DNA of 64,000 bases from Pseudoxanthomonas sp. CF385 (GTDB taxonomy: Bacteria > Pseudomonadota > Gammaproteobacteria > Xanthomonadales > Xanthomonadaceae): positions 1,019,443 to 1,083,442 of the forward strand of contig NZ_FNKZ01000002.1 in NCBI RefSeq assembly GCF_900104255.1. The letters run 5' to 3'. This document shows positions 1,933-17,982 of this stretch, piece after piece. The position numbers were made by a program, and so were the translations under genes. The notes beneath the pieces were generated by a model. It did no database searches and was not told the DNA's origin. It was given only the letters and a program-made list of their open reading frames with translations. Numbering within the stretch: position 1 is the first letter of the stretch; each line of letters opens with the position of its first letter.

Positions 1933-2051
1933 TACCGGGCACCTCGCTGTTTCGGATGGCGGCGACGCATGCGCGGCATGTCGTCGCGGTCGTTGTCCGG
2001 ATCGTGGCAACGGTGGCGTGAAGAGAACGGCGGAAGCAGCACAACCGCGGA

Positions 2052-2813
2052 TTAATGCGCGTGCGCACCGATCCATGCGGCCGTCAGCGCAGCGAATTCC
2101 TTGAATGCGCGCCCGCTGCGCCACAGTGCACGTCGCGAAGGCAGCCAGCGTTCACGCACGCCGACGGCGCGCCGCCCTTCCGGCACCGGCACCGGCGTCA
2201 CCTCGGCGCCGGCCTGCGTGAAGAGCAACGCGGCGCGCGGCATGTGCAGCGCGGAGGTCACGAGGAGCACATGGCGCCCGCCCCGTTCGGTCGCGAGCGC
2301 GGTGCTGAAGCGCGCGTTGTCGCGCGTGTCGTGGCTGCGTTCCTCGAGCATCAGGGCAGCCGGCGGCACGCCGAGGCGCTGGATCGCGGCGGCCATCCTG
2401 CGCGCTTCGGTGGTGTTGCCGACACCGCCTCCGCTCAGGATCACCGTCGGTGCCTTGCCCGCGTGCCAGGCGCGCGCACCCGCCGCGAGGCGACTGCTGC
2501 GCAGCCGCGCCGGATCCACGTCCTCGCGGTCCAGCCACGCATAGTTGCTGCCGCCGCCCAGCACGACGATCGCATCGGCCGACGGCAGCGCGGCGGCCTC
2601 CTGCACGGCATAGCGGTGCTCGAGCGCGCCCCGCAACGTTTCCGAAGCGAGCGGAATCGACCACAGCGCAGACCACGCGAACGCCGCGCCCGCGATGCCG
2701 CCGGCGATCCAGTGCCGTCGCAGCAGCCACGCCAGCGCCGCGACGCCAAGCAGGCACAACGAGAACGCGGGCGGATAGCTCAACGACACCACCAGTTCGG
2801 CCAGGGTCTTCAT
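2052..2813 (-). CDS. YdcF/ElyC-family (DUF218) membrane-anchored protein
   Basis: This 253-residue protein has hydrophobic N-terminal segments (residues about 10-60) and then a DUF218 domain: DAIVVLGGGSNYAW, a Gly-rich ILSGGGVGN, a conserved acidic EERSHDTRDNA and LLVTSALHMPRA. These match the ElyC/SanA/YdcF family, whose members act in envelope carbohydrate metabolism; their biochemical activity is poorly defined. The gene lies between the EpsG-like polymerase and the export lipoprotein on the same strand, with a 9-base gap to the upstream gene. This suggests a role in polymer assembly or undecaprenyl-linked sugar handling. That role is inference from context. Confidence 0.82.
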   Translation of the reverse strand: MKTLAELVVSLSYPPAFSLCLLGVAALAWLLRRHWIAGGIAGAAFAWSALWSIPLASETLRGALEHRYAVQEAAALPSADAIVVLGGGSNYAWLDREDVDPARLRSSRLAAGARAWHAGKAPTVILSGGGVGNTTEARRMAAAIQRLGVPPAALMLEERSHDTRDNARFSTALATERGGRHVLLVTSALHMPRAALLFTQAGAEVTPVPVPEGRRAVGVRERWLPSRRALWRSGRAFKEFAALTAAWIGAHAH

Positions 2814-2822
2814 CGCGCGGCC

Positions 2823-3881
2823 TCAGATGACGATGCCGCGACTGACATAGAAGAACAGCACGCCACAAGCGGCCGCCAGACCGGCGCCGAGCAGCAGCGG
2901 TTGCCGCAATGGCGCGAGCCGGCTGTAGCAGCAGGCGGCGGCCAGGATGAGCGAGATGGCCAGCCAGCCCGGCAGCAGGTAGCGGTTGGAGAAGTAGCCC
3001 CACCCGATCACGAAGAACGGCAACACCATGACGAGGTAAGCCGACGCGCACGCCTGCAAGGGCTTGCGCGCCGCCGGCTGCACCCATGGCGACACCGCGA
3101 GCACGAGCAGGTACCAGAAGATCGTGAACACCGCGAAGTCGATGCGTACGCCGGCGCGATAGTTGTCGTTGGCCGTGTACTCCATGACCGTGGTGTACAG
3201 CGTCGGCGACACCATGCCCACCACCTTCATCGACAGGCCGCTGACGTAGGCAAGGAACGCCAGCGCCGCCAGCACGCGCAACGGATTCGGCTTCAACAGC
3301 AGCGCCGGCGCACAGATCAGATACAACAGGGAAGACACGTGCAGACTGGCCGCCACTGCGCCCAGCAGCACGAAGCTCCACCATCGGCGCTGCTGGAAGC
3401 ACAGCAGGGCAGCGAACACGAGCGGCGCCGCCAGGCCCTGGCGGATGGCGTTGATCGACGCGTTGACGAACATCGGCGAGATGAACAGCAGCAGCAACGA
3501 CGCGCACAACAGCGTCGGATACGCCTGCGTCGGCGGAAACACGCGATGATTGATCCGCACGGCGATGGCGACGCCGAGCAGCAGCAATGCGAACAGCGCC
3601 GCCTGGTATCCCGGCACGCCCAGGCCCAGCAGGCGCAAGCCGTAGCTCAGGTAGGCGAAACCGGGCTCCAGGCGGGTCTCCGGCACGCCCTGGTCCAGGC
3701 TCTCGAAGAAGCCCGCGTACGTCTCCGTGTCGGAGCCGATGTCCAGCGGGCGGCTGCCCACCAGCCAGCAACCGAACAGCGCCACGGCCAGCAGCCACAC
3801 GACGCCGAGCCAACGCTCCGCATTCGCCTGCGGGCTATGGGCCGAGCGCAGGTAGGGCAACTCGATGCCGGGACTCGTCAT
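2823..3881 (-). CDS. EpsG-family polysaccharide polymerase (Wzy-like)
   Basis: This is a 352-residue polytopic membrane protein with roughly ten hydrophobic segments. Near the N-terminus it has the family-typical periplasmic loop, PLDIGSDTETYAGFFE, and then EPGFAYLSYGLRLLG. EpsG-family proteins are thought to join repeat units of exopolysaccharides at the periplasmic face of the inner membrane. In this locus it is the only polymerase candidate and complements the flippase at 5858-7162. The ATG at 3879-3881 lies 4 bases after the stop of the upstream glycosyltransferase, so the two are likely co-translated. A Wzy or O-antigen ligase annotation is an alternative, since these families are distinguished mainly by profile searches. 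Confidence 0.82.
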   Translation of the reverse strand: MTSPGIELPYLRSAHSPQANAERWLGVVWLLAVALFGCWLVGSRPLDIGSDTETYAGFFESLDQGVPETRLEPGFAYLSYGLRLLGLGVPGYQAALFALLLLGVAIAVRINHRVFPPTQAYPTLLCASLLLLFISPMFVNASINAIRQGLAAPLVFAALLCFQQRRWWSFVLLGAVAASLHVSSLLYLICAPALLLKPNPLRVLAALAFLAYVSGLSMKVVGMVSPTLYTTVMEYTANDNYRAGVRIDFAVFTIFWYLLVLAVSPWVQPAARKPLQACASAYLVMVLPFFVIGWGYFSNRYLLPGWLAISLILAAACCYSRLAPLRQPLLLGAGLAAACGVLFFYVSRGIVI

Positions 3882-3885
3882 GCGG

Positions 3886-4728
3886 TCACCGTGTCGCGGC
3901 CGGCCGCATCATCAGCAACATGCGCCGGCGTCCGCGCCGCACCAGGCCCACGCTGCGCGCGAACCAGTGCTCGCCACGCGTGACCAGACCGGCGGCCAAC
4001 AGTTCGCGCCGCACCTCCTTGCCGGCACGATGCATCGCATCGAGGTCGCCACTGAGTCCGGCCGCGCCGAACGTGGGCTTGTGCCAGTAGGCGAGCACCT
4101 GGTTGAGCTTGACGCAGCGATAGCCGGAGAAGCCGATCTGCGCCCACAGCAGGAAGTCTTCCACCCGGCGGAACCGCTCGTTGAAACGGAACGGCAGGTC
4201 GCGGCGCAGGATGACCGAGGCGGTGGGGAACGGATTGTTGAGCAGCAGACGACGACGCCCGATCACGTGGGTACGCACGGCGCCGCGCACGGGCTCGGGC
4301 GTGGCGCCACGCGGCGCCACCTTCATGCGGTGCGCGATCAGGGCAATGCGCGGATCGCGTTCGAGTTCGGCCATCTGCCACGCGAGCTTGTCCGGTGCCC
4401 ACGTATCGTCGGCGTCGAGGAAGGCGATGTACGGCTGCACCGCCTGCTGCCAGCCGAGGTTGCGCGCACGCGACGGCCCGCCATTGGGCGATGCCGCGAC
4501 CACCTTGACCCATCCTGTCGGGTACGCACCGGCGACGCGATGCAGCGCATCGAGGGTATCGTCGCCGCTGGCATCGTCCACCAGCAGCACTTCCGCCGGA
4601 GGCCGGGTCTGCGCCGCGATCGACGCCACCGCGTCGCCGATCGTGTCGCCGCAGCGGTAGCACGGCACCACGACGCTGACGGGTGCCGGTGCGCCGGGAA
4701 GGGAAGGAGATGGGATGTCGTCGTTCAT
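3886..4728 (-). CDS. Glycosyltransferase family 2
   Basis: This is a GT-A fold transferase that should add one sugar of the repeat unit from a nucleotide-sugar donor on the cytoplasmic face. Diagnostic parts are PVSVVVPCYRCGDTI, the donor-binding EVLLVDDASGDDT, the metal-binding YIAFLDADDTWAPDK and the later RRVEDFLLWAQIGF (the ED acidic pair that usually supplies the base). The length of 280 residues is ordinary. The ATG at 4726-4728 overlaps the stop of the pyruvyltransferase as ATGA. The frame stays open further upstream, but that part overlaps the pyruvyltransferase. Donor and acceptor cannot be predicted. Confidence 0.93.
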   Translation of the reverse strand: MNDDIPSPSLPGAPAPVSVVVPCYRCGDTIGDAVASIAAQTRPPAEVLLVDDASGDDTLDALHRVAGAYPTGWVKVVAASPNGGPSRARNLGWQQAVQPYIAFLDADDTWAPDKLAWQMAELERDPRIALIAHRMKVAPRGATPEPVRGAVRTHVIGRRRLLLNNPFPTASVILRRDLPFRFNERFRRVEDFLLWAQIGFSGYRCVKLNQVLAYWHKPTFGAAGLSGDLDAMHRAGKEVRRELLAAGLVTRGEHWFARSVGLVRRGRRRMLLMMRPAATR

Positions 4729-5861
4729 GCCTGGGCCCATGGTGCGCATTGGAAGATGTCGGGCGCCCGCTGTGCGTAAGCGGCGCGTGAAACGCGCGGT
4801 TGCCGTTCGCCTGCGAGCAAGGCAGGCAACGCTTCGCTGAATGGATTCTCCGCCTCCGCCGCGGTGACACGCAGCAAGGGATGCAAGCCGATGTCGTCGG
4901 CGAAATCGCGGCACTTCGGGTGGTAGTCGATGATCATGAACGGCACCTCCTGCAGGTAGGCGACGATGGCGCCATGCAGACGCGCGCTCACCACCACGTC
5001 GCACGCGGCCAGCGCATCGACGGTCCGCAACGGGTCCTGGCTCGCGTATGCGCGCCACGTGGCCGCCACGCCTTCGGTGCGCAGCCGCTCCACCAGCGAT
5101 TGCGCCAAGGCGCTGTCGCCGTGGTGCGGATGCTCGTTGAGACTGAACACGTCGACGCAGACATCGCGCGTCCGGCGCAGGTCCGCCAGCGTGGCGATCA
5201 GGTGCTCCTCCCAGCGCCGCCGCGACGGGGCGGCGTACTCGCCGTCTTCGCGATAACGGCACGGCGCCACGCCGACACGCACGGGCGCATTCGGCATCTT
5301 CACCGGGGCGGCGGTGCGCGGGCCCAGCGCCGGCAGCAAGGCCGCCAGGTCGCATCCCGCGTGAGTGATCGCCTCCAGGCCCATCGCCTGGGCGAGGCGG
5401 TGCGAGCGCGCGTCGCGTACGGACAGGTAGCGGAACCGCTGCAGGAAGGCGGCGACCAAATCCTCGTCGCGCGCATCGTCGAAGGGCCCGATCGAAACGC
5501 CCACGGCCGCGAGCTGCACACCGCGCTCCACGGCGGACAGCATCATCGGCTTGCGGAACGATTCGCGCGCGGTGATCACCGAACCGCCGCCCATCACCAG
5601 CACGTCGCAGTCATGGATGCCACGGGCGAAGCTGAGCCACCGGCTCGCCTTGCCGACGACGCCGGTGCCGCCGTACCAGCGCGTCGGATAGCGACGCGGC
5701 ACGGTGCTGCGCGCGGGCGCCGCGGCCAACGGCGGCCCGACGACGCGCGGAGCCGCATGCCAATAGGCCTGGGCCGCGCGCGTGCACAGTACGCCGAACA
5801 GGTCGTCGCCGAAGTTGCGCATGCCGTAGTAGCCCGTGAAGGCCGTCCGCAACGCGGTCAT
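4725..5861 (-). CDS. Polysaccharide pyruvyl transferase family protein
   Basis: The 378-residue protein begins MTALRTAFTGYYGMRNFGDD, the N-terminal signature of the polysaccharide pyruvyl transferase family (G-x-x-N-x-G-D). Later it has VMGGGSVI, VSIGPF, YLSVRDARSH and SARLHGAIVAYLQEVPFM, with the conserved R-x-H-G-x-I-x-A motif. Family members such as GumL and CsaB transfer pyruvate from phosphoenolpyruvate to a sugar as a ketal, adding negative charge. The gene overlaps both neighbours by ATGA, so it belongs to the operon core. The product of this locus is therefore predicted to be acidic. Some family members have other roles, so the reaction is an inference. Confidence 0.88.
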   Translation of the reverse strand: MTALRTAFTGYYGMRNFGDDLFGVLCTRAAQAYWHAAPRVVGPPLAAAPARSTVPRRYPTRWYGGTGVVGKASRWLSFARGIHDCDVLVMGGGSVITARESFRKPMMLSAVERGVQLAAVGVSIGPFDDARDEDLVAAFLQRFRYLSVRDARSHRLAQAMGLEAITHAGCDLAALLPALGPRTAAPVKMPNAPVRVGVAPCRYREDGEYAAPSRRRWEEHLIATLADLRRTRDVCVDVFSLNEHPHHGDSALAQSLVERLRTEGVAATWRAYASQDPLRTVDALAACDVVVSARLHGAIVAYLQEVPFMIIDYHPKCRDFADDIGLHPLLRVTAAEAENPFSEALPALLAGERQPRVSRAAYAQRAPDIFQCAPWAQA

Positions 5862-7162
5862 GGCGCACCCCGCAGGGCCGCGGCGCGCCGCGCGCCGTGG
5901 TACATCGCCAGCAGCAACAGGGCTTCTGCGGCGAGCGTCGCGAACGCCGCACCCATCGCGCCGTGGGCGGGGATCAGCAGCAGGTTGAGCAAGGCCGCGG
6001 CCGTGGCGGCCGCGAGCATCGCGCCCACGCGGTAGGCCATCTGGCCTTCGGTCAGCAGCACGGCGCCCACTGCCGTGGACAGGAAGCGCACCGGTACGCA
6101 CACCGCCAACAGCATCAGCAAGGGCTGCAGGCCCGCGTAGCGTTCGCCGAACACGCGGACCGCTTCGCCCGACAGCGCCGCCAGCACGACGCCGACCAGC
6201 AGGCCGCTCGCCAGCATGCCGATGCAGCCCAGCCGGTACACCTGTCGGAAGCGCGCACGGTCATGCACCGCCCACCGGTGCAGGCGCGCGAGCAGGAACT
6301 TCTGGTACACCGTGGTCGGGAACAGATAGATCGCCGTCATCACCGCCAGCGCGATGCCGAACACGCCAGCCTCCGCGTCGCCGCGCAGGTACTTCAGCAG
6401 CACCGTGCCGATCTGGAAGAACACCGGGTACAGCACGGCGGCGACACCGTAAGGCCATGCCTGCCGGAACAGCATGCGGGCGTCGGGTCGCACGATGTCG
6501 CGGGCCAACAGGGGATCGCGCGGGCCGTGGCCCTTGAGCGTCCAATCGCCGCTGCGCATCGCCCGCCATTGCGGCACTGCCAGCATGAGCACCACGACCG
6601 CCAGCACGGCATGGCCCCAGGCTACGGCATGGATCGACATCGAGAGGCCCGCGACCGCCAGCAGGGCGATCGCCAGTCGGCCTGCCGGCATCAGCAGCTG
6701 CCACCCTGCCAGCGCCGCGTGCCGCTCTTCCAGGCGCAGCTTGCTGCCGATCTGTTCCACCGCCAGCAGGCCGAGGATGAAGGGGGCCAGCGCCAGCAGC
6801 ATGGAACGCGTGGCGGCATCGACCGGGGGCCCGGCCAGCGCCCACGCCACGACCCCGCCGACGGCCAGCACGCTGGTGAGGACGAGGAAGCGCGACGATG
6901 CCGGCTGCCACCGCTCGGCCGCCCATCCCTCCGCGCCATGCGCCTTCAGCCGGAACTGGGACAGGCCGAATCCGGCCAGCGGTGCGACCAGGCTGACCGT
7001 CGCCAGCGACGAAGCGAACAGGCCGTAGTGCGCCGGCCCGAAATGGCGCGCCAGCACCACCTGGGTGAGGAACACCATCGCTGCGCCTGCCGCCGTCGCC
7101 AGCGACAGCACGGACAACGCGGCGAGCGCGGGACGCCAGGGCACGGGCAAGGCCTGGCTCAT
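5858..7162 (-). CDS. Lipid-linked oligosaccharide flippase (Wzx/MOP superfamily)
   Basis: This is a 434-residue protein with about 12 hydrophobic segments, starting MSQALPVPWRPALAALSVLS. The first membrane segments contain VVLARHFGPAHYGLFASSLA and a loop GFGLSQFRLKAHG, typical of the polysaccharide-biosynthesis branch of the MOP/MATE superfamily. It should translocate undecaprenyl-diphosphate-linked repeat units to the periplasm, upstream of the EpsG-like polymerase. It overlaps the GT4 gene before it (ATGA at 7159-7162) and the pyruvyltransferase after it (ATGA at 5858-5861), which implies coupled translation. Confidence 0.9.
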   Translation of the reverse strand: MSQALPVPWRPALAALSVLSLATAAGAAMVFLTQVVLARHFGPAHYGLFASSLATVSLVAPLAGFGLSQFRLKAHGAEGWAAERWQPASSRFLVLTSVLAVGGVVAWALAGPPVDAATRSMLLALAPFILGLLAVEQIGSKLRLEERHAALAGWQLLMPAGRLAIALLAVAGLSMSIHAVAWGHAVLAVVVLMLAVPQWRAMRSGDWTLKGHGPRDPLLARDIVRPDARMLFRQAWPYGVAAVLYPVFFQIGTVLLKYLRGDAEAGVFGIALAVMTAIYLFPTTVYQKFLLARLHRWAVHDRARFRQVYRLGCIGMLASGLLVGVVLAALSGEAVRVFGERYAGLQPLLMLLAVCVPVRFLSTAVGAVLLTEGQMAYRVGAMLAAATAAALLNLLLIPAHGAMGAAFATLAAEALLLLAMYHGARRAAALRGAP

Positions 7163-8313
7163 GCCGCCGCCGCGAGCGGCTGCGGCAGCAGCTCGTCGTA
7201 GACCTCGCAGGTCCGGCGGATGACCGTGCGCTCGTCGAAGTCGGCGAGCGCCTTCTCCCGTGCCCGTACGCCCAGCGCGTGAAGCAGCACGCGATCATCG
7301 TCGAGCCGCGCCAGTACCCGGGCCAGCGAGTCGGCGCTGCGCGGCACCACGTGCAAGCCGTCGTGGCCATCCCGGGTCACCACCTCCCTGCAACCGGGCA
7401 GGTCGGTGGTGACGAGCGCGATGTTGCAGGCCGCGGCTTCGATGAGGCTCTTCGGCACCCCTTCGCGGTAGTAGCTGGGCAACGCCATCACGTCGACGTC
7501 GCGCAGCAGCGCAGGCATGTCGTCCACGTGGCCCAGCCATGTCAGCAGACCCTGCGACTGCCAGCCCTCGACCTCGCCGCGCGTGACCGAACTCGGGTTC
7601 CCCTCGTCGGGCATGCCCGCCAGCAGGAAACGGACGTCGCGACCCTCGGCGCGCAACTGCGCGGAGGCGTCCGCATACTCGCGCACACCCTTTTCCTTCA
7701 GCAGGCGGGCGGCCAGCAGCACGCGCAACGCGCCATCGCCGCGCGGTTGCCGGCCGTCGGCGTTGAAGCGCGCGATGTCCACGCCGGAACTGCGGATCAG
7801 GCGGATGTGCTGGGGCGGCGCCAGGCGCAGCGCATGGAAGGCCTCTGCGTCGTCCGGATTCTGCAGGATCACCCGCGAGCGCTCGCTGCCGAGCGCGGCG
7901 CGCATCAGCGCCGAGACCAGCGGGCGCAACACGCGGGCCTTCATGCGGTCGCTGGCGAATACGTAGCCCAGGCCGGTCACCGCATTGACATACGCCGGAA
8001 CGTTCGCCGCGCGCGCCGCCAGCGCGCCGTACACGGCGCACTTCAAGGTGAAGCTGTGCAGGAGGTCCGGGCGCTCCTCGCGCAGCAGCGCGACCAGGTT
8101 CGCCAGCGTGCCCGCCTCACGCAGCGGATTGAGACTGGCACGCTGCATGCGCAGCGGCACCCAGCGCACGCCGTGCGCGGCGAAGCGAGGACCGAACTCG
8201 CCCGGAGGGGAGACCATCACCACATCCACGCCGCGCGCCTGCAACGCACGCGCCGTCGACAGCCGGAAGTTGTAGAGGTACCAGTCGGTGTTGGCGAACA
8301 GGATGAACTTCAA
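7159..8313 (-). CDS. Glycosyltransferase family 4 (GT-B fold)
   Basis: The protein begins LKFILFANTDWYLYNFRLS, which fits the usual start of this GT4 subgroup. I therefore choose the TTG at 8311-8313, with a GGAG site 7 bases upstream. An in-frame ATG at 8377-8379 would add 22 atypical residues. The N-terminal acceptor domain includes LLHSFTLKCAVYGALAA and YVNAVTGLGYVFASD. The C-terminal donor domain has the classical sequence: ARLLKEKGVREYADA, WLGHVDDMPALLRDVDVMALPSYYREGVPKSLIEA, the E-x7-E region, and LPGCREVV. It is a retaining enzyme that adds a sugar to the lipid-linked repeat unit. Substrates are not predictable. Confidence 0.92.
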   Translation of the reverse strand: MKFILFANTDWYLYNFRLSTARALQARGVDVVMVSPPGEFGPRFAAHGVRWVPLRMQRASLNPLREAGTLANLVALLREERPDLLHSFTLKCAVYGALAARAANVPAYVNAVTGLGYVFASDRMKARVLRPLVSALMRAALGSERSRVILQNPDDAEAFHALRLAPPQHIRLIRSSGVDIARFNADGRQPRGDGALRVLLAARLLKEKGVREYADASAQLRAEGRDVRFLLAGMPDEGNPSSVTRGEVEGWQSQGLLTWLGHVDDMPALLRDVDVMALPSYYREGVPKSLIEAAACNIALVTTDLPGCREVVTRDGHDGLHVVPRSADSLARVLARLDDDRVLLHALGVRAREKALADFDERTVIRRTCEVYDELLPQPLAAAA

Positions 8314-8418
8314 GGCGGGCTCCGCGCGAATCGATACCCGCGATTCTAGGAAACGACCCCGCGGAATCCATTGACGCACTCACCACAAGCCGCAGGCACG
8401 CATGAACGCCCGAAACGG

Positions 8419-8444
8419 AAGAGGCGGCCTCGCGGCCGCCTCTT
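8419..8444 (-). terminator. Hairpin, possible weak terminator after the beta-helix gene
   Basis: A GC-rich inverted repeat has arms AAGAGGCGGC (8419-8428) and GCCGCCTCTT (8435-8444) around a 6-base loop. On the minus strand it follows the stop of the beta-helix gene at 8481. The downstream tract is only moderately T-rich, so it may attenuate rather than end transcription. It would lower expression of the seven following genes relative to the kinase half of the operon. Confidence 0.45.
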
Positions 8445-8480
8445 GACGCACTCTTCACTCCACGCGGCCTTCCCGCGCGA

Positions 8481-9716
8481 TCACTTCGCGAACTGGTTCG
8501 TCGTGACCCGGATGTCGGTGGCGGTAGACACCTTCGCGACGTGCGCGCCGTTGCCCTTGTTCCCCTCCACGATGCCGGTCATGGAGACGAGCGGGTTCAG
8601 GACGGTGTTGATGCCATGCAGCCGTGCATTGTTGTTACGGAAGACGTTCCCGCTCACCTGGTAGTTGTAGGTGTTGGCGCCCAGCATCAGGCCCACCAGG
8701 TGGTTGTGGCGGATCGTGTTGAGCGCGATGTAGCCGTCTTCCGGACCGATGGTCAGCAGGCCGTGACCGCCGTTGTACTCGAGGGTGCAACGCTTGACGG
8801 TGACGCCCTTGACCCGCTTGTAGAGCAGCACGCCGTTGCCGGCGTTGCCACGCATGACGCAGTTCTCGATATGCACGGTCGAAGTGATCCGCGCATCGTG
8901 GGAATCGGGCTCCACGTCGATGCCGCACTCGGGGGCGATGCCGCGCGTGTCGCTGAACTCGCTGTCGTAGACCTTGACGTTGGTGGCGCAGCCGATGGTC
9001 AGGCCCTGGCGGCGGTTTCCGGTGCTCACGATGTTGGCGATCACCACGTCGTTGCACGGGATCGTCGGCGCGTTGGTCACCATGGCGCCGCCGATGGAGA
9101 CGCCGTCGCCCCAGCACTTCGACACGTGGATGTCGCGGATGGTCACCTTGCTCGAGCCGCGGACCATGATGCCGTGGCCCCATTCGCCGGTGGTGCCCAG
9201 GTGGTTGTCGCGGTCGCCGATGATGCGGCCACCGGAGATCTCGACGTTGCTGACCTTGTAGACCATCAGCACGTAGGCGCGCTCCTGGTCGTTGCGCTTC
9301 GCCCGCAGGATGGCGCCGTCGGCGAGCTGCAGGTGCATGTTGCTGCGCAGGCGCACGTTGCGGGTCGGATCGATCACGTAGTCGCCCGCCGGCACGTGGA
9401 TCGTGCCGCCGGACGCAGGCAGCGCATCGACGGCCGCCTGGAACGACGCGGTATCGTCGCGCGCGCCGTCGCCGGCCGCACCCCAGTCGCGCACGCTCAA
9501 TGAAGCGCCACCACGCGCGCGCGCCGGCGGATCGTAGACCGCGGTCGCCGACATCGAGAGCGCCGGCATGTTGCCGGCCATGACCGCGCCGAGCGCACGC
9601 GGGATGCCGCTGGCCACGCCGATGGCGGGCAGCGCGAAGAGCATCGATTTCTGCAGGAAACCGCGCCGAGGCATCCCAGCCTCGCGCACGTCGTGCACGA
9701 GAACATTCTTCTTCAC
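8481..9716 (-). CDS. Tat-exported right-handed parallel beta-helix protein (first paralogue)
   Basis: This is a pectate-lyase-like beta-helix protein of 411 residues. The GTG at 9714-9716 has an AAGGGG site 8 bases upstream; an alternative ATG is at 9672-9674. The N-terminus carries a twin-arginine motif, [11 protein letters not shown], before a hydrophobic stretch ending in ALGA. The helix opens with [20 protein letters not shown], which resembles the start of pectate-lyase-superfamily tailspikes and GH28-like proteins, and repeats such as [20 protein letters not shown] follow. Such proteins cleave or epimerise acidic polysaccharide. Here it likely acts on the locus's own polymer in the periplasm or outside. 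No catalytic residues could be assigned. It is paralogous to the gene at 10027-11076. Confidence 0.85.
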
Positions 9717-9920
9717 AAACGTAACCCCTTGCGGGCAAGCGCCCGTCGGAAAAGTAGCCAGGTGATCGCCGCGTGAAATCGCGACGGGGGCGACTATAGC
9801 GATGGAGAAGCAACCGCTGGTTAACGCAACGACGTATCTGTGAACGCTTTCAAACACTTCGCGCATGCACAAGCTGTTCACGCGAACGCCGTCACGTATC
9901 CGCATGCATGCGATCGTGGT

Positions 9921-9988
9921 TGAGTCCGCTTCTCCAGCGCGGATGAGGCTGCTTGCTCAGCGCGGATGAGTCCGCTTGTTCGGGCGGA
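9921..9988. repeat. Three imperfect 23-bp tandem repeats in the gap between the beta-helix genes
   Basis: Units start at 9921, 9944 and 9967, with a decayed fourth at 9989. Each begins TGAG and contains a C/TGCTT core and a GCGGA end, for example TGAGTCCGCTT...GCGCGGA. They sit in the 310-base gap (9717-10026) separating the two beta-helix genes. Apart from this array and the likely ribosome-binding site of the downstream gene, I see no gene in that gap. The repeats could be protein-binding sites or slippage products. Confidence 0.7.
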
Positions 9989-10026
9989 TGCGTTCGCTTC
10001 GCGCGCCATCGTACTGCCGAGAGAGA

Positions 10027-11076
10027 TTATTCGAACCGGTTGCTTCGGTCGACGCGCACGTCCGTCGCGGTCTTGGCCACGTCGACGTGCATCCATCCCT
10101 TCATCGCCTGCGGTTTCTGCCGACGCAAGCCCATGGCATTGCCCGAGAACCGGTTGCCCGCAACGACGATGTCGCGCCCACCACCCCGCACGACGATGCC
10201 GCGCAGGCCATTGTCCGCGATGTCGTTGTCTTCGAGCACGCACTGTTCGCCGCCACGGATCAGCACCCCATCGCCGCGATTGCCGCGGATGATGCAGCGA
10301 CGGACGGTGATGCGGCGACCGCGCTCGTAGACCTGCAGGCCTGCGCCATGGTTGCCGCGCAGCGTGCAGGCTTCGATGCCGATATCCTCGGCGTCGGCGC
10401 CCGGATCGGGCTCGATGTCGATGCCGCAGCCCGGCAGCGTGCCCTGCGTGGCGAGGAAGTGGGAGCGCAGCACGCGGACGTTGCGCGATCGTCCGATCGT
10501 CAGGCCCTGCCGGCGGTTGCCGGTGCAGACCACGTCCTCGATGCGGATGTCGCGGCTGGGCAGCACCCTCGCGCCGCTGATGCCGCCGACCGAAATGCCG
10601 TCGCCCCAGCACTTGGTGATGTGCACATCGCGCAGCAACACGCGTTCCGCGCCGCGCACCATGATGCCGTGACCCCATTCGCCCGTGGTCGACAGGTGGT
10701 GGTCGCGATCGCCGACGATGCGTCCGCCACTGACCTGCACGTCATGCACGTCTTCGATCAGCAGGACGTAGGCCCGGGGCGCGGCGTTCGCCCGCGCGAT
10801 TAGCCGCGCATCGGGCGCCATGGACAGGCGCGTGCGCGAACGCAGGCGCAGGCTGCGCTCGGGATCGATCACGTAGTTGCCCGACCCGAGCGCCAGCGTG
10901 CCGCCGGCCGGCAGCGCGTCGATGGCCGCCTGCAGTGCGCGCGTGTCGTCGGTGACGCCATCGCCCCGCGCGCCGAAGGCGCGCGCATCCAGCGCCAGCG
11001 CACGCGGGGACGGCAACGCCGAAGCGAGCAGCAGGCCCGCGCCTGCTCCCATCCATCGACGCCGGGACAGCCGCAT
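10027..11076 (-). CDS. Tat-exported right-handed parallel beta-helix protein (second paralogue)
   Basis: This 349-residue protein starts MRLSRRRWMGAGAGLLLASA, a twin-arginine signal (S-R-R-x-W) with cleavage probably near ALALDA. It then shows AFGARGDGVTDDTRALQAAI, the entry strand of a pectate-lyase-superfamily beta-helix. Blocks shared with the gene at 8481-9716 include GGRIVGDRDHHLSTTGEWGH, HITKCWGDGISVGG and [19 protein letters not shown], so the two arose by duplication. The ATG overlaps the stop of the asparagine-synthase-like gene as TGATG. A role in trimming, depolymerising or epimerising the exported polysaccharide is inferred. The true substrate is unknown. Confidence 0.85.
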   Translation of the reverse strand: MRLSRRRWMGAGAGLLLASALPSPRALALDARAFGARGDGVTDDTRALQAAIDALPAGGTLALGSGNYVIDPERSLRLRSRTRLSMAPDARLIARANAAPRAYVLLIEDVHDVQVSGGRIVGDRDHHLSTTGEWGHGIMVRGAERVLLRDVHITKCWGDGISVGGISGARVLPSRDIRIEDVVCTGNRRQGLTIGRSRNVRVLRSHFLATQGTLPGCGIDIEPDPGADAEDIGIEACTLRGNHGAGLQVYERGRRITVRRCIIRGNRGDGVLIRGGEQCVLEDNDIADNGLRGIVVRGGGRDIVVAGNRFSGNAMGLRRQKPQAMKGWMHVDVAKTATDVRVDRSNRFE

Positions 11077-12509
11077 CAGGCCGCGATCGATTCGCGGCGC
11101 GGCTCCGTGGCCGTGCCGGCGGCCTCGGCTGCGTGCGCCGCCAGCCACGGCAACACCACCGCCAGCAGGTAGAACTTCGACGCGTGGTACTTGTTGTCCA
11201 GGCGGCCGCGGTTGCGCTCCAGCCACGCGACCGCACCGGGCAGCGTGTCGCGCGTTTGCGCGGCGAACGCATGGACCTGCTCGAATCGCTGCGCGGCCAG
11301 GCCGCAGACATCGAAGCGGAAGCTGCCCTTGCGCTGCACGTAGGGCAGCTCGCCGAAGTGGGCGGCGATGTGGCGCCGGATGAGGATCTTGTTCAAACCC
11401 GATTCCGGGTCCACCTTCTGCCTGCGCGGCACTTCATGATGGATCCATTCGCGCAGGGCGCGATCGCAGAAGGGATAGGCCGCGCCCAGCCCTGCCGCAT
11501 GCGACGTGTACAGACCCTTGGCGAACGCGCCGGCCGAGCCGGCGATGGACATCGACATGTCGCGCCATTCCCACGCGCTGGTGGCCGACGCGATCTCCGT
11601 CTTGAACAGCGACAGCCGCTCGCGCGAACGACGCGCCATGTCGGCGCCGAACAGCGCGTCCACTTCCGCATCGCTGAAGCGCGAGCCGGGGAAGACGCGC
11701 TCGATCGGCGTCATCTGCAGGGTGCCGAGCGCGAAACAGAGCGGGAAGCTGGCCGATACCCCTGGCAGGCCGGTGGCGTCGAACGGCAGGCGCAGTCCGC
11801 GCGCCATGCGCACCGTCAGCTGCTGCTGCAGGTCGACCGGCGTGCCGAAGTAGCTGTCGGCGCCGAGCCCATCGATGACGCCGTCGCCACCGCGCGCGGC
11901 CACTTCGGTCGCGAGGTCGGCATAGGACAGCAGGGCGAAATCCGCCGTCAGCAACGGCATGCGCGCGGCCAGTGCCAGGTAGCGGTCGTAGGCGCGCCCG
12001 GGATCGCAGACCAGCATCTCGTGGCGCAGGCCCAGCCGGGTCGCGACATGGCGTGCGGATTCGAGCTCGTTCTCCTCGCGCCCGCCCAGATAGGTGATGC
12101 AGGTGGCGTCGGGCCGCGCATCGGCGAGGGCGATCGCCAGGGTCGTGGAGTCCTTGCCACCGCTCTGCAGCAGCCACGGCGAGCGCATGTTCGCGCACGT
12201 CCGGGTGATCGCATCGCACAGCATGCGGTGGTAGACCGCGATCCAGTCCTGCGGCCGGTCCGCGACCTCCGGCACCTCGCCGGCGTTGCGGAACTTGAAA
12301 TGGAAGTCCGGTGCGGCACGCATGTCCTGGTGGGCGGAGAAGCCGAACGTCACCAGCTTGACGCCCTCGTAGATGGAATGCGGCGGATAGACGAAGGCGT
12401 TGCGCAGCAGGTCGGCGACCGACACCGGGTCGATCCGGTGGTACTCCGGATGGCGGTCCAGCACGGTGAAATCCGGCGTGCCGTAGTACGGCGACATGGT
12501 GATCTGCAT
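11076..12509 (-). CDS. Asparagine-synthase-like PP-loop protein lacking a glutaminase domain
   Basis: The 477-residue protein has the ATP-pyrophosphatase PP-loop SPWLLQSGGKDSTTLAIAL (about residues 143-161) and ATCITYLGGREENELESARH, as in the C-terminal half of AsnB. Its first about 100 residues contain FVYPPHSIYEGVKLV, like the AsnB linker. There is no catalytic Cys at position 2 and no N-terminal glutaminase domain, so any amide nitrogen would have to come from free ammonia or another subunit. The ATG at 12507-12509 has a GGAGG site that overlaps the stop region of the kinase gene. In this operon it may amidate a uronic or aminouronic sugar, which is an inference. Similar proteins occur in lasso-peptide and glycan loci. 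Confidence 0.8.
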   Translation of the reverse strand: MQITMSPYYGTPDFTVLDRHPEYHRIDPVSVADLLRNAFVYPPHSIYEGVKLVTFGFSAHQDMRAAPDFHFKFRNAGEVPEVADRPQDWIAVYHRMLCDAITRTCANMRSPWLLQSGGKDSTTLAIALADARPDATCITYLGGREENELESARHVATRLGLRHEMLVCDPGRAYDRYLALAARMPLLTADFALLSYADLATEVAARGGDGVIDGLGADSYFGTPVDLQQQLTVRMARGLRLPFDATGLPGVSASFPLCFALGTLQMTPIERVFPGSRFSDAEVDALFGADMARRSRERLSLFKTEIASATSAWEWRDMSMSIAGSAGAFAKGLYTSHAAGLGAAYPFCDRALREWIHHEVPRRQKVDPESGLNKILIRRHIAAHFGELPYVQRKGSFRFDVCGLAAQRFEQVHAFAAQTRDTLPGAVAWLERNRGRLDNKYHASKFYLLAVVLPWLAAHAAEAAGTATEPRRESIAA

Positions 12510-12522
12510 CGGTGGCGCCTCC

Positions 12523-14781
12523 TCAGCGGCCGGCGCCGGCACGCGGTGCCGGCAGGTACTCGTAGTAGGTGTAGGCGTACTCGCCCGCGCCGCGCTTCTC
12601 CACGCCATTGAAGATCGCGCCCTTCACCTCCACGCCGTTCTGCTCCAGGCGCTGCTTGGCCAGGGCGATCTCGCGCTGCTGGTTGAGGCCCCAGCGCACC
12701 ACCATCAGGCAGGTGCCGGCATGGTGGCCGATGACGGCCGCGTCGGTGACGGCCAGCACCGGCGGCGTATCGATCAGCACGATGTCGTATTCGCCCGACA
12801 CGCGCTTCAGCAGGTTGCTGAAGTTCTCGTGCATCAGCAGCTCCGACGGGTTGGACGGGATCGCGCCGCGCGAGATGAAGGAGAGGTTCTCGGCGCCCGC
12901 GACCCGGCGGACGGCTTCGTCCAGCGGGATGCGGCCCTCGATGACGTCCGACAACCCGTTCTGCCAGCGCACGCCCACCGCATCGTGCAGCGTGCCGCGG
13001 CGCATGTCGGCATCGATCAGCAGCACGCGTTGCCCCGTCTGCGCGATGGTGACCGCGAGGTTGGCGCAGATGAAGGTCTTGCCGACACCGGGGCTGGGCG
13101 CGGAGATCATCAGCAGGTTGTTGCGCATGCGCATCCGGGCGAAGTGCAGGCTCGTCCGCAGCGAGCGGAGCGCCTCCATCGCCAGGTCCGACGGCGCGTT
13201 CAGCGCGAGCAAACGCGATTTTCCGTCACGACGACGGTGGCTCATGCGGTAGGTCAGTGCCTGGCCCTTCTTGCTCAGCGGGATGGACGCATAGACCGGC
13301 AGGCCCAGCAGTTCGATGTCGACCGGGTCTTCCACGCCGCGGCGGAACATCTGCTGCACCAGCACCACGACCACCATCACCATCAGGCCGAGCAGCGTGC
13401 CGGCGGCGAGCACCGGCAGCGGCTTCGGCCACGCCGGGCTGTTGAGGTTCACGGCCGCCGGATCGATCACGCGCGCGTTGCCCACCGCGCTCGCCTTGGC
13501 GATCTCCAATTGCTGTGCCTGGTCCAGCAGGTTGGCGTAGGTCTGGTTGGTGACCTCGACGTCGCGATTCAGGCGGAACAGCACCTGCTGCGTGTCCGGC
13601 AGATCATGGATCCGGCCCTGCAGCCCATTGCGCTCGCCCTGGAACCGGTTGATCTGGTCCTGCAGCGCGCGGTAGGTCGGATGCGCCGCGGTGTAGCGGT
13701 TCTCCACTTCGGTCATCTTGATGCGCAGCTGCTGGATGCTGGAATCCAGGGCGATCGTCTGGTCGAGCAGCGCGCGGTTCTGCGTCGCCACATCCAGGGT
13801 CTGCGTTCGCGTCTGGAACGCAGTCAACGCGGCCTGGGCCTTGCCCAGTTCCTCGCGCACCTTCGGCAGCTGCTCGGTGACGAACTTCAGCCGGCTGGCC
13901 GCTTCGGCGGAGGTGCGCGCGACGTTCTGCCGCACATAGGCGCCGGTGACCTCGTCGAGGACGCGGCGCGCCCGCTCGGGATCGGCGTGCGCGTACACCA
14001 GACTGATCACGCCGGAATTGCGGCCCATTTCCGTCGCCGTGATGTTCTCTTTCAACGCCGCCATCACCGCCGACGGATCGTAGCGGGTCACCTGGAAGCG
14101 CATGCCGGGATGCGCCGTCAGCCTGCGCACCTGCATCGCCACGCCACCCGCATTCACCGGCGTACCGGCGCGGCCGCGCGCGAGCACCTGGCCCTGCGCG
14201 GACAGGACATAGCGCCCTTGCGCACCGGCCGTCAGTTCCATCGGCACGCCCTTAAGATGGTCGGGCACCTCGAGCCGGGCGATATCGAGGGTTTCGCCGC
14301 CCCAGCCGTACTGCGACAGGCCGAACCACGGCGACGCCAGCTGGCCCGGGTTGGACTGCTGGTAGCGGCGTGCGATGAAGTCGCCGACCACGGGCAGGTG
14401 CTGCGGCTTCACGTCGACCGCCAGATCCATCTTCGTGATGGCCTCGCCGATCACCCGTCGCGACGTCAGCAGCTGGACTTCGGTGGTGCCGGGGGTCGGG
14501 ATGGCAGGCGGTGCCTGCATCGCCGCATTCGGGCTGAGCCCTGGCGGAATGGCCGGGCGGCTCTCCACCTGGACCACGGCATTGGCTTCGTACTTCGGCG
14601 TGACCACCGCGAGGTAGGCGACGCTCGCCAGCACGAAGGCGGCGGTACCGAACAGGATGAGCTTCTTCTTCGCGCCCAGCGTGGAGACCAGGGCGGGAAT
14701 GTCGACGTCGTCGTTGCGTACGGAGGCGGCTGCCAGGGTCGGTCGTTCCGCGCTTCGTCGCGTGATCAGCTGGGTCGCCAT
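12523..14781 (-). CDS. Polysaccharide co-polymerase with cytoplasmic BY-kinase domain (Wzc type)
   Basis: This protein controls chain length and export of the polysaccharide. The 752 residues comprise an N-terminal membrane helix (about 40-60), a periplasmic Wzz domain with coiled-coil regions, a second helix (about 450-475) and a BY-kinase domain. The kinase has a Walker A motif SPGVGKTF (about 560), Walker A' LLIDADMRRG and Walker B IVLIDTPPVL. The C-terminus has a tyrosine cluster, EYAYTYYEYLPAP, with five Tyr at 735-742 as the autophosphorylation site. The ATG at 14779-14781 follows a GAGGTG site. The phosphatase at 17401-17982 should dephosphorylate it. Unlike classical GumC, the kinase is on the same chain. 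Confidence 0.93.
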   Translation of the reverse strand: MATQLITRRSAERPTLAAASVRNDDVDIPALVSTLGAKKKLILFGTAAFVLASVAYLAVVTPKYEANAVVQVESRPAIPPGLSPNAAMQAPPAIPTPGTTEVQLLTSRRVIGEAITKMDLAVDVKPQHLPVVGDFIARRYQQSNPGQLASPWFGLSQYGWGGETLDIARLEVPDHLKGVPMELTAGAQGRYVLSAQGQVLARGRAGTPVNAGGVAMQVRRLTAHPGMRFQVTRYDPSAVMAALKENITATEMGRNSGVISLVYAHADPERARRVLDEVTGAYVRQNVARTSAEAASRLKFVTEQLPKVREELGKAQAALTAFQTRTQTLDVATQNRALLDQTIALDSSIQQLRIKMTEVENRYTAAHPTYRALQDQINRFQGERNGLQGRIHDLPDTQQVLFRLNRDVEVTNQTYANLLDQAQQLEIAKASAVGNARVIDPAAVNLNSPAWPKPLPVLAAGTLLGLMVMVVVVLVQQMFRRGVEDPVDIELLGLPVYASIPLSKKGQALTYRMSHRRRDGKSRLLALNAPSDLAMEALRSLRTSLHFARMRMRNNLLMISAPSPGVGKTFICANLAVTIAQTGQRVLLIDADMRRGTLHDAVGVRWQNGLSDVIEGRIPLDEAVRRVAGAENLSFISRGAIPSNPSELLMHENFSNLLKRVSGEYDIVLIDTPPVLAVTDAAVIGHHAGTCLMVVRWGLNQQREIALAKQRLEQNGVEVKGAIFNGVEKRGAGEYAYTYYEYLPAPRAGAGR

Positions 14782-14854
14782 GGTTCACCTCGCTTGCATG
14801 TCGTGTCGTGGGCGTGCCGCTTTTCGCGGCACGCGGATGGGAACGGGATCGCCG

Positions 14855-17215
14855 TCATGACGCAGCCCGGGCATCGAGGGGTTCGCGCAGGTCGTGCGCG
14901 GCGCTGCGGGGCGCGTGCGGCGCTCGCAGGCCTGCGAGCGCTTCCAGCACCGGCGCGCAGCCGTCCTCGCGGGGGATGTCCAGGTCCGGTGCATCGCACA
15001 GCGAGACATAGACGGCGTCGTCGCCCAGCAGCGTCAGCACGCGGCCCGCGATCGCGACCGGCGTGACGCCGATGGCGACGGCCCCGTCTCCGGCGCCGGC
15101 TTCCTCCTGCGCTACCAGCACCGGCTTGCCCAGCAGGCGCCTCGGCGGCGGTGCGCCCGCGCCCACGAGCACCAGGTAGGCGCGCTCGAGCAGGTAGGCC
15201 CACGCCAGGAAGTCGTCGACGTCCAGCGGATGCACGTTCGCGAACGTGTGCAGCGGATCGCCGCCCTCGCCCGGCGCCACGCCCACGCCGCCGACCCAGA
15301 CGATGTCCACGTCGGGCCGGCGGCGCGCCACCATGGCGAGCGCGTCCGAGAACGCGCCCTCCTGGTCCGGCGCGTCGCTGCGCGCGCTGACGGCCAGCAG
15401 CAGGGGCGCATTGCCGCGCAGGAAGCCGAAGCCTTCGGCCAGCGAACGTGCGAGATCGGCATCGCGGCGCATCTGACGCAACGCGGTCCGCAACGCGTCA
15501 TCCGCCACGTCGGCCTGCACCAGGATGCTTTCCCTCGGCACGCCTTCGCCGCTCAGGCGACGGCTGGTCAGCTCGCTGGGGGCGACATGCAGCGCAGCGA
15601 GCGACTGCACGATGCGGCGGCTTGCTTCGCTGGGCCAGTGCTGCGTGCCGGAGGCCGGTGCATCCGCATCGACGCAGACCAAGGGCACGTCGCGCGCGTG
15701 CGCGGCCAGGCTCATCGCGAACGTCACCGGCGCATCGCCGGGCACCACGATCACGTCGGGGTTGGTGTCGCCGATCAGCTGCTGCATCTCGGCCTGCGCA
15801 TCGCCATAGGCCGCGCCGCCGCCTTCGGTGGACACGCTGGCCTGGGCCTCCAGCCCGAACATCTGCAGCAGGTGCCCGGCGTCGCCACCCGAGCCCTCGG
15901 CCACGCAGACGGTCGCCTGGAAGCGCGCATCGTCGGCCAGCCGCCGCGCGATCGGCGCCACGCCGGCGCCCTCACAGGATGCATTGACCAGGCACAGCGC
16001 ATGCAGCGGCGCATCGACGTCGCGGATGGCGCCCGACGCCGTCGCGGACGGGATGCCGACCGCTTCGAAAGGAAGCGGACCGAGCGGACGTACGGACACC
16101 GGTGCGTGATTGAGTTCGCCATCGTCCGGGAACTCGCGTCGCGTCCGACGCGATCCCGGTCCGGGTGCGGGTCCGGACGTCCAGCGCTCGATCGCCTCGA
16201 GCAGGCGCGGGAATGCGACGACGTACGTCGCGGTGTTGGCGACGAACACCAGGAAGCTCAGCGGCTGCGGCACGTTGCGGAGCGCATAGCCCAGCAACGC
16301 CAGCGCCGCGCCTATCGACACGATGATCCACAGCGAAGCGTTCGCCGACAGGCCGCCATCGATCAGCAGATGGTGCAGGTGCTGGCGGTCGGCCGCGAAC
16401 GGCGAGCGCCCGCGACGCAGGCGGCGGTACATCACCGCCGCGGTATCCATCAGCGGCAGCGCCACGCACCACAGCACCTCGACGGGCACCAGCCGGCCGA
16501 CACGCGGATGGCTCAGATAGATCAGGCTCCAACCGACCAGGAAGCCGATGACCGTGCTTCCCGCATCGCCCATGAAGATCTTGCGGCCGTCCGGCCATCC
16601 CAGATTGACGAAGACGTAGGGAATCAGCGATGCGAACAGGATCTGCAGCATCAGCGTCGCGCCGACATCGGGCGCGCCGTCGTGCGCGAACAGGAGGATA
16701 GCGGCGATCGACACCATCGCGGTGGAGGCGGCGAGGCCGTCGATGCCGTCCATCATGTTGAACGCATTCATCAGCCCGATCACCGCGACGATCGTGACCG
16801 GGATGCCGAGCAGTCCCAGCCGCAGCTCGAACACCGGGACGAGCCCGCCGACCTGGTCGAGGTAGTAGCCGGTGCTGAGGATGACCAGGCTGACGATCGC
16901 CGCTTCCACCAGCAGGCGCGTGCGCACGCTCAGGTGGCTGATGTCGTCCGCCACGCCGACCGCCACGATCAGCGCGCTGCCCATCATCAGGCTCATCACG
17001 AAACGGTCGACGTAGCCCAGGTAGCCCAGTCCCACCAGGGTGCCGACGAAGAAGCAGATGCCGCCGATCACCGGGACGCGGCCGACGTGCTGCTTGCGCC
17101 CGCTGGGACGGTCCACGAGACCGACCCGCCGGGCCCATGGCCGCATCGAGAAAATGGTGAACAACGTGGCGGCGAGCGCGATGGCGCTTGCCGCAACGAC
17201 CCTTGCATTCTCCAT
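14855..17215 (-). CDS. Initiating sugar-phosphate transferase (WecA/MraY-like) fused to a degenerate UDP-GlcNAc 2-epimerase-like domain
   Basis: Residues 1-345 form a polytopic PNPT transferase: VGVADD (86-91), NAFNMMDGIDG (150-160), IFMGDAGS (213-220) and HLHHLL (279-284). These are the Mg- and substrate-binding motifs that load a HexNAc-1-phosphate onto undecaprenyl phosphate. After a Pro/Arg-rich linker (345-400), residues about 405-735 follow the WecB 2-epimerase fold. PGDAPVTFAMSLAA stands where WecB has QGDTTT, WPSEASRR where it has PEE-x-NR, and HVAPSE and GKPVLV are recognisable. The HRREN histidine is replaced (SARSDAP) and the DSGG loop is VGAGAPP, so epimerase activity looks lost. 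It is probably the first committed enzyme of the locus. At 786 residues it is about twice the normal transferase length. Confidence 0.88.
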   Translation of the reverse strand: MENARVVAASAIALAATLFTIFSMRPWARRVGLVDRPSGRKQHVGRVPVIGGICFFVGTLVGLGYLGYVDRFVMSLMMGSALIVAVGVADDISHLSVRTRLLVEAAIVSLVILSTGYYLDQVGGLVPVFELRLGLLGIPVTIVAVIGLMNAFNMMDGIDGLAASTAMVSIAAILLFAHDGAPDVGATLMLQILFASLIPYVFVNLGWPDGRKIFMGDAGSTVIGFLVGWSLIYLSHPRVGRLVPVEVLWCVALPLMDTAAVMYRRLRRGRSPFAADRQHLHHLLIDGGLSANASLWIIVSIGAALALLGYALRNVPQPLSFLVFVANTATYVVAFPRLLEAIERWTSGPAPGPGSRRTRREFPDDGELNHAPVSVRPLGPLPFEAVGIPSATASGAIRDVDAPLHALCLVNASCEGAGVAPIARRLADDARFQATVCVAEGSGGDAGHLLQMFGLEAQASVSTEGGGAAYGDAQAEMQQLIGDTNPDVIVVPGDAPVTFAMSLAAHARDVPLVCVDADAPASGTQHWPSEASRRIVQSLAALHVAPSELTSRRLSGEGVPRESILVQADVADDALRTALRQMRRDADLARSLAEGFGFLRGNAPLLLAVSARSDAPDQEGAFSDALAMVARRRPDVDIVWVGGVGVAPGEGGDPLHTFANVHPLDVDDFLAWAYLLERAYLVLVGAGAPPPRRLLGKPVLVAQEEAGAGDGAVAIGVTPVAIAGRVLTLLGDDAVYVSLCDAPDLDIPREDGCAPVLEALAGLRAPHAPRSAAHDLREPLDARAAS

Positions 17216-17360
17216 CTGTCACCCAGGGTTGCTGTGGACGAAGTGCCCCAAGGAACCCTGGTCCGTTCGGGATCCTGCGCGTCAACACGGGGCGTTGTTG
17301 AGTGACCCGAGGCTACGGACAGGAATTTGATGAGCGCATGAAATGGCGCAGCGCGCGTAA

Positions 17361-17384
17361 CGGTCCAGTCAGGAAGCTGGACCG
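17361..17384. repeat. Perfect inverted repeat between phosphatase and transferase genes
   Basis: Arms CGGTCCAG (17361-17368) and CTGGACCG (17377-17384) flank an 8-base loop. A 10-base perfect palindrome, GCTGTACAGC, lies directly beside it at 17384-17393. Both are within the 185-base gap before the long operon. There is no following T-run on the minus strand, so this reads better as an operator or attenuating hairpin than as a terminator. Confidence 0.55.
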
Positions 17385-17400
17385 CTGTACAGCGACGTGA

Positions 17401-17982
17401 TCAGGCGGACAATCGGCGATCGTGCGCGCACCATTCGGAGACACAGCGCTCGATCAACGCGAAGGTGCGCTCGAAGTCGTCCTGCGTGCCCGCGATCGGA
17501 TCATCGATCTCCTGCGAGGGCGTCCACCGGCCCAGCAGGTGCATGCGCGGACGCGCGCTCGGCAGCAGCGCGCGCAAAGCCTGCAGGTGACGCTGCTGCA
17601 TGGCGAGCACGAGATCGTCCTGACCGACGGATGCGGGATCGAAGGCGCGCGCGGCCGGCTCCAGCGGGCGCAGGCCATGCGCACCGAGCACCGCGGCCGC
17701 GCGCGGATCGATCGTGCGTCCCGGCTGGGCGGCCAGGCCCGACGAGACGATCATGCAGCGTCCCGCGGGCACCCGGGCATGGAACAGCGCCGCGGCCAGC
17801 GGGCTGCGGCACAGGTTCCCCATGCAGACGACGTGTAAGGTGAACAACCGGGCCGGCCCCAGGTGGGAAAGGGCGTCCAGCCTAGCCAGCGCCCGCGCCC
17901 GGCGTGCGAATGCGGCGTGAGTCCCGGGCACGCATTCATATATATGGTGTCGCAGGCGGGACCGGTGTCCCGATTCAAACAT
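17401..17982 (-). CDS. Low-molecular-weight protein-tyrosine phosphatase (Wzb type)
   Basis: The phosphate-binding loop [11 protein letters not shown] carries the C-x5-R(S) signature (Cys53, Arg59 from the ATG at 17980-17982). The general-acid Asp is in EIDDPIAG. This is the usual LMW-PTP fold that dephosphorylates BY-kinases such as the one at 12523-14781. The start is uncertain: from the ATG the protein has about 45 extra N-terminal residues, whereas a TTG at 17845-17847 ([11 protein letters not shown]) would give the normal about 148 residues. Neither has a clear ribosome-binding site. The gene is divergent from aroQ and on the same strand as the polysaccharide operon, so it may be its first cistron. 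Confidence 0.85.

Follow-up and report, generated by a model that had tools for sequence, protein, structure and literature searches.

A WecB-like pseudoenzyme domain fused to a polytopic initiating transferase of Xanthomonadaceae is a candidate dimerisation or docking module

A 64,000-nucleotide stretch of the Pseudoxanthomonas sp. CF385 genome (contig NZ_FNKZ01000002.1; hereafter the window) carries a fusion gene whose 786-amino-acid product joins a WecA-type polyprenyl-phosphate N-acetylhexosamine-1-phosphate transferase (PNPT) to a dead domain related to the non-hydrolysing UDP-GlcNAc 2-epimerase WecB. This protein is most likely the initiating sugar-1-phosphate transferase for a Wzx/Wzy-type polysaccharide, with transfer activity predicted from its sequence motifs. 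On balance, we favor the view that the C-terminal domain is a pseudoenzyme that has been kept to dimerise this transferase, or to dock it to Wzc or the assembly machinery, rather than to turn over UDP-GlcNAc or sense it through the former WecB sites.

A previous sequence-only reading of the window had described a PNPT joined covalently to a decayed WecB domain, with transferase motifs kept in the N-terminal half and catalytic segments changed in the C-terminal half, and this description is borne out on each count. The window protein matches PF00953 at 101 bits (cut-off 27), and the acidic and histidine motifs of the PNPT are conserved in an alignment of 34 fusions. The whole N-terminal domain and its motifs are shared with WecA and other polytopic PNPTs, which lack the extra C-terminal extension of about 440 residues. 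With 272 bits, the window PNPT misses the 326-bit cut-off of TIGR02380, the NCBIfam model for WecA of enterobacterial common antigen (ECA). Because this is an 'exception' type model for the enterobacterial enzyme, the failed cut-off narrows only the name. The dead domain likewise misses the wecB cut-off (77 versus 210 bits), yet its sequence homology to WecB is still detectable. Structure prediction, which models the PNPT half poorly, yields the GT-B epimerase fold over the full length of the dead domain, as the earlier reading had anticipated. Its structural neighbors are epimerases first and then GT4 glycosyltransferases such as BshA and PglA.

Although the fold is shared with WecB and MnaA, most of the catalytic, UDP-binding and allosteric residues are gone. 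We used E. coli WecB as the ruler for positions, with residue roles taken from PMC8869731 and PMC11464976 and renumbered to E. coli here. Specifically, the window protein carries R10>S, K15>G, E117>D, E131>S, H213>A, H246>G, S290>A and E296>P, and retains D95 and R135. Among the catalytic residues D95, E117, E131 and H213, only D95 is kept, and one of five substrate-binding residues survives (R10, K15, R135, S290 and E296 read S, G, R, A and P). At the allosteric positions, an R aligns at 214 and a G at 246. The same pattern extends to 54 dead full-length domains, in which retention is 0% for R10, 4% for K15, 50% for D95, 24% for E117, 6% for E131, 98% for R135 and 7% for H213, and, in a gapped stretch of the alignment, 22% for S290, 6% for G292 and 67% for E296. 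Allosteric residues are retained at 7% (Q38), 4% (H39), 2% (Q65), 11% (R214) and 0% (H246). Residual epimerase activity is rejected on the basis of these residues. The positions conserved in 90% of the 54 domains show no obvious new cluster of polar residues. An invariant tyrosine that might serve as a Wzc target was also sought, but none exists in the C-terminal domain across a 34-row alignment, where Y736 is nearly invariant. One member of the dead clade, L029 (genome G074), looks intermediate, with the active-site traces HGDT and THRE and an Epimerase_2 match of 189 bits.

Related fusions with intact motifs, which are not visible from the window alone, place this loss in context. A PNPT-only search of 390 genomes of the family gave matches of at least 315 bits in 60 genomes, all in frames of 520-879 amino acids (the shortest being cut by a contig end). 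The remaining matches among those listed score no more than 189 bits at 30-40% identity. Since all 60 strong matches lie in frames of fused length, this PNPT clade is always fused. We define class I fusions as those keeping all six WecB motifs, class II as those that have lost motifs, and class III as those whose second domain half is gone. Class I occurs in 18 of the 60 genomes and dead fusions in the other 42, to which genome G392 from a separate search adds a 43rd; motifs were read directly in 42 of these 43, and G024, split across two contigs, was assigned from its pieces.

The two groups differ in their pathway surroundings. A wecC gene (690-744 bits) lies directly downstream of the fusion in all 18 class I genomes, whereas wecC exceeds its cut-off in 6 of the 43 dead-fusion genomes, never adjoining the fusion, and all six have a separate full-strength WecB. 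A separate WecB of at least 390 bits is present in 12 of the 43 dead-fusion genomes versus 1 of the 18 class I genomes, and weaker relatives occur in four further class I genomes (154-197 bits) and in some genomes with a dead fusion (155-174 or 270 bits). Both kinds of fusion, including class I proteins such as that of Lysobacter enzymogenes, share the Wzb/Wzc neighborhood. The order is wzb-wzc-fusion in 5/5 class I loci, whereas in 16/16 dead loci the first gene detected past the fusion is wzc, with wzb upstream in 15. A homologue of an Asn-synthase-like protein of the window lies near the fusion in 16/16 dead and 0/5 class I loci. This locus comparison covered homologues of window genes only. 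These contrasts come from essentially one evolutionary split, and thus are not independent trials.

The order of events is indicated by trees. The nearest PNPTs outside the family, found in a sample of 250 genomes of the order, are 18 matches from a sister family at 41-50% identity, 17 of them in frames of 371-471 amino acids and one in a frame of 1134. None of the 15 sister-family loci, including that with the 1134-residue frame, has a WecB match in the same open reading frame (ORF). An unfused same-strand pnpt-wecB pair is also missing from all 15, one of which has a wecB-like gene in its flank on the opposite strand, and such a sister-family pair is rejected as the precursor. The base stayed unresolved in an earlier PNPT tree that used distant outgroups, but rooting on the 15 sister-family PNPTs places the dead proteins in one clade (55 rows, support 99/99), which reappears when the long-branched P0120 and P0130 are restored (56 rows, 100/98.6). 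Class I falls outside the dead clade, but not as a single clade (two changes). The epimerase-domain tree also unites the dead proteins (97), with the dead domain on long branches. From these trees it follows that the fusion came first and that a single loss of catalytic residues came later. Re-activation of a dead ancestor by gene conversion is rejected, since one dead clade with class I outside makes loss the simpler account.

Wider searches recover little else of this kind. A sample of 369 genomes of the class contains no close match except the window's own, the next being 213 bits in a 382-residue frame, and phage records gave no match. A single-sequence scan of genome contigs returned 18 loci, with two fusions only (Pseudoxanthomonas) and distant PNPTs at the others. 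One protein, P0159 (748 amino acids), joins a PNPT of about 31% identity to a WecB domain with all six epimerase motifs, so that fusions with intact motifs seem to have more than one origin. Elsewhere, precomputed Pfam annotations among P0150, P0156, P0147 and P0172-P0174 join WecB domains to Wzz (PF02706), to UDP-sugar dehydrogenase (PF03721 and others) and to PF03808, which we take to be the WecG/TagA family.

Natural deletions indicate which part of the domain is kept. The first Rossmann half is found in 168/168 homologues without the HRRE motif, whereas the second has been excised in three or four lineages, leaving the first half and the C-terminal helix in a unit predicted to fold. The helix assignment follows the WecB domain definition given in PMC8869731. 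With row ends judged by eye, 38 rows lack the second half, of which three are end-cut (L104, P0038 and P0079) and three look frameshifted or altered (P0065, P0081 and P0099), leaving 32. No second half was found by tblastn downstream of the gene in 10 loci, eight of which lack it, and in those eight the wzc match starts 51-113 bases after the stop codon. With 32 rows remaining and no displaced half, the half-domain forms are rejected as mere frameshifts or assembly errors. One lineage without the second half comprises P0133, P0139, P0103, P0123 and L065 (G012), some with insertions in the first half. Most likely, the first Rossmann half forms the functional core, with the C-terminal helix closing it.

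Selection was gauged from the ratio of nonsynonymous to synonymous substitution rates (dN/dS) by the Nei-Gojobori method (NG86). In the window clade (six genomes, 15 pairs), the PNPT stands at 0.117 and the dead domain at 0.127 (0.103 in its first half and 0.155 in its second), while linker and tail drift at 0.371 and 0.623. The dead domain is therefore not junk but is under purifying selection in this clade. Elsewhere the PNPT, first and second halves give 0.120, 0.188 and 0.526 (g45 clade) and 0.151, 0.235 and 0.404 (a second Pseudoxanthomonas clade). Two class III clades give 0.217 and 0.268 for the PNPT and 0.392 and 0.396 for the first half (three pairs each). Given the limits of NG86 in GC-rich and more diverged genes, comparisons within a protein are the safer ones.

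These observations can be joined into the following scheme. WecB would have been fused to a PNPT in an ancestor within the family, and some descendants would have kept the motif-intact, wecC-linked form, presumably as an active enzyme. In the window's line, the adjoining N-acetylmannosamine (ManNAc) branch is absent, catalytic residues appear to have been lost once, and the domain would have been retained as a pseudoenzyme. Because a class I epimerase would need a cytoplasmic site to reach UDP-sugars, the dead domain is probably cytoplasmic as well, where it may hold the membrane transferase as a dimer or dock it to Wzc or the assembly machinery. The position of wzc next to the dead fusion in 16/16 loci suggests contact with Wzc.

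By analogy, the module might work like the domain of unknown function (DUF) of WbaP, an initiating enzyme of an unrelated transferase superfamily. As described in PMC10942596, the WbaP DUF makes most of the inter-chain contacts, mediates dimerisation in WbaP-type enzymes and is implicated in their response to uridine nucleotides. Like WbaP and other large monotopic phosphoglycosyl transferases with PF13727, the window protein is an initiating transferase to which a non-catalytic cytoplasmic domain of nucleotide-binding type has been added. However, the domain families differ, the appended domain is N-terminal in WbaP and C-terminal here, and a Pfam scan of the window protein (E up to 10) finds PF00953 and PF02350 but no PF13727, so that the likeness is one of working and not of membership. 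Related precedents are a response regulator proposed to switch another WbaP-type enzyme by promoting its dimer (PMC12802240), and EcpK, a tyrosine pseudokinase proposed, in PMC12004946, to act as a scaffold through protein contact. EcpK, too, is a pseudoenzyme that a Wzx/Wzy pathway has retained, but it belongs to another protein family and acts on the co-polymerase rather than on the initiating transferase. KasQ, a relative of WecB, is dimeric in solution.

Other explanations differ in what they make of the same evidence. The sequence-only reading had cast the domain as a UDP-sugar sensor, and UDP-GlcNAc sensing via the catalytic or allosteric WecB sites is rejected because the residues of those sites are mostly lost in the 54 dead domains and the second half, with its diphosphate-binding SGG motif, has been deleted repeatedly. 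A uridine nucleotide or UDP-sugar could instead bind at a remodelled site and throttle the transferase, as UMP does WbaP. The Rossmann fold is indeed kept, as are D95 (50%) and R135 (98%), and PMC10942596 reports UMP, UDP and UTP as candidate stabilisers of the WbaP DUF and UMP as an inhibitor. We nonetheless judge this unlikely, given that most of the known UDP and allosteric residues are gone and that several lineages have excised the second half with the gene still intact and in place. It is somewhat unlikely that the PNPT needs the appended domain for folding or stability alone, with no regulatory or docking role. Such dependence fits a domain that is never wholly absent from the clade (60/60) and whose conserved part resembles the fold core, with a second half that can be dropped, but the fast evolution of the linker is easier to reconcile with a tethered module than with a tight stabilising contact, and both halves remain constrained in some clades.

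Simple decay of a relic after loss of the ManNAc branch is quite improbable. Long dead-domain branches, repeated loss of the second half and its relaxation in the g45 clade speak for erosion, whereas the window-clade dN/dS is near that of the PNPT, the first half is present in 168/168 homologues and excision leaves a unit predicted to fold. Least of all do we expect a different enzyme, such as a glycosyltransferase or an epimerase acting on some other nucleotide sugar. The GT-B fold, its GT4 neighbors and GT4 Pfam matches in some homologues would allow this, but no new polar cluster accompanies them and several lineages do without the second half.

Several points weigh against a retained dimerisation or docking module as well. 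Action of the domain by protein contact, with self-association or docking most likely, is inferred, and most of its conserved positions resemble fold positions. With D95 and R135 kept, some of the former pocket may still be important. Both halves are constrained in the window clade, and in the g39 clade (L026, L027, L030, L031 and L036) the pattern is opposite to that of the other clades tested, with the second half more constrained (0.197) than the first (0.368) and the PNPT at 0.263. Finally, NG86 is rough here, giving 0.485 for the class I PNPT and 0.236 for the class I epimerase.

Table 1. Features of the fusion gene and its surroundings in the window
Feature	Positions	Strand	Remarks
Fusion gene, WecA-type PNPT + dead WecB-like domain	14855..17215	-	786 aa
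PNPT domain	16196..17215	-	residues 1-340; transferase motifs intact; WecA-family match 272 bits
Linker	16007..16195	-	residues 341-403; fast evolving, dN/dS 0.371
Dead non-hydrolysing UDP-GlcNAc 2-epimerase-fold domain	14924..16006	-	residues 404-764
First (N-terminal) Rossmann half	15506..16006	-	residues about 404-570
Second Rossmann half	14978..15505	-	residues about 571-746; kept in this protein but lost by excision in several related lineages
C-terminal helix (CAPVLEALAGL)	14924..14977	-	WecB alpha16 equivalent; retained when second half excised
Low-molecular-weight protein tyrosine phosphatase (Wzb-like)	17401..17982	-	upstream neighbor of fusion
Wzc-type polysaccharide co-polymerase / tyrosine kinase	12523..14781	-	downstream neighbor of fusion
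Rest of Wzx/Wzy-type cluster	826..12608	-	
Asn-synthase-like protein	11076-12608	-	
Beta-helix protein	10027-11226	-	
Beta-helix protein	8481-9905	-	
GT4	7159-8379	-	
Wzx-like	5858-7162	-	
Pyruvyltransferase	4725-6101	-	
GT2	3886-5355	-	
EpsG-family (Wzy-like)	2823-3881	-	
DUF218	2052-2813	-	
Wza	826-2124	-	

The cluster occupies the minus strand from 826 to 17982 in the order Wzb-like, fusion, Wzc, Asn-synthase-like, two beta-helix, GT4, Wzx, pyruvyltransferase, GT2, EpsG family, DUF218 and Wza, and the fusion is the sole candidate initiating transferase seen in it. Two other PF00953 proteins occur in the window's genome (L003, read from its sequence as MraY-like, and L004, read as a PNPT of 359 amino acids), which has no second Epimerase_2 protein and no UDP-ManNAc dehydrogenase (wecC) above cut-off (best 188 versus 459 bits). 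No glutaminase domain was detected in the Asn-synthase-like protein by Pfam scan, and this protein possibly amidates a sugar acid. The right-handed beta-helix proteins stand in tandem (8481-11226, minus strand), and their homologues adjoin most dead fusions examined. An antisense ORF of 803 amino acids (14894-17305, plus strand) covers the entire fusion gene and probably just reflects GC-rich third positions.

Both activities already appear in the names that some JGI records give to such proteins, and the dead fusions P0011 and P0021 are called UDP-N-acetylglucosamine 2-epimerase in public (NCBI) records; 2-epimerase names on dead fusions are naming errors. No paper on a PNPT-WecB fusion was found by title or abstract start in the openly licensed literature. 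Within one bacterial family, motif-intact fusions, pseudoenzymes and trimmed half-domains form a series, and its likely pathway reason is visible in whether wecC adjoins the fusion. The control of polytopic initiating transferases thereby becomes testable with variants that nature has supplied. Tentatively, a polytopic transferase may have convergently acquired a WbaP-like control module from a dead metabolic enzyme, and several lineages may then have trimmed it independently by excising the second Rossmann half, with the first half and its packing helix retained. If true, natural deletion variants already outline the smallest module able to gate the first committed step, which it might do jointly with Wzc.
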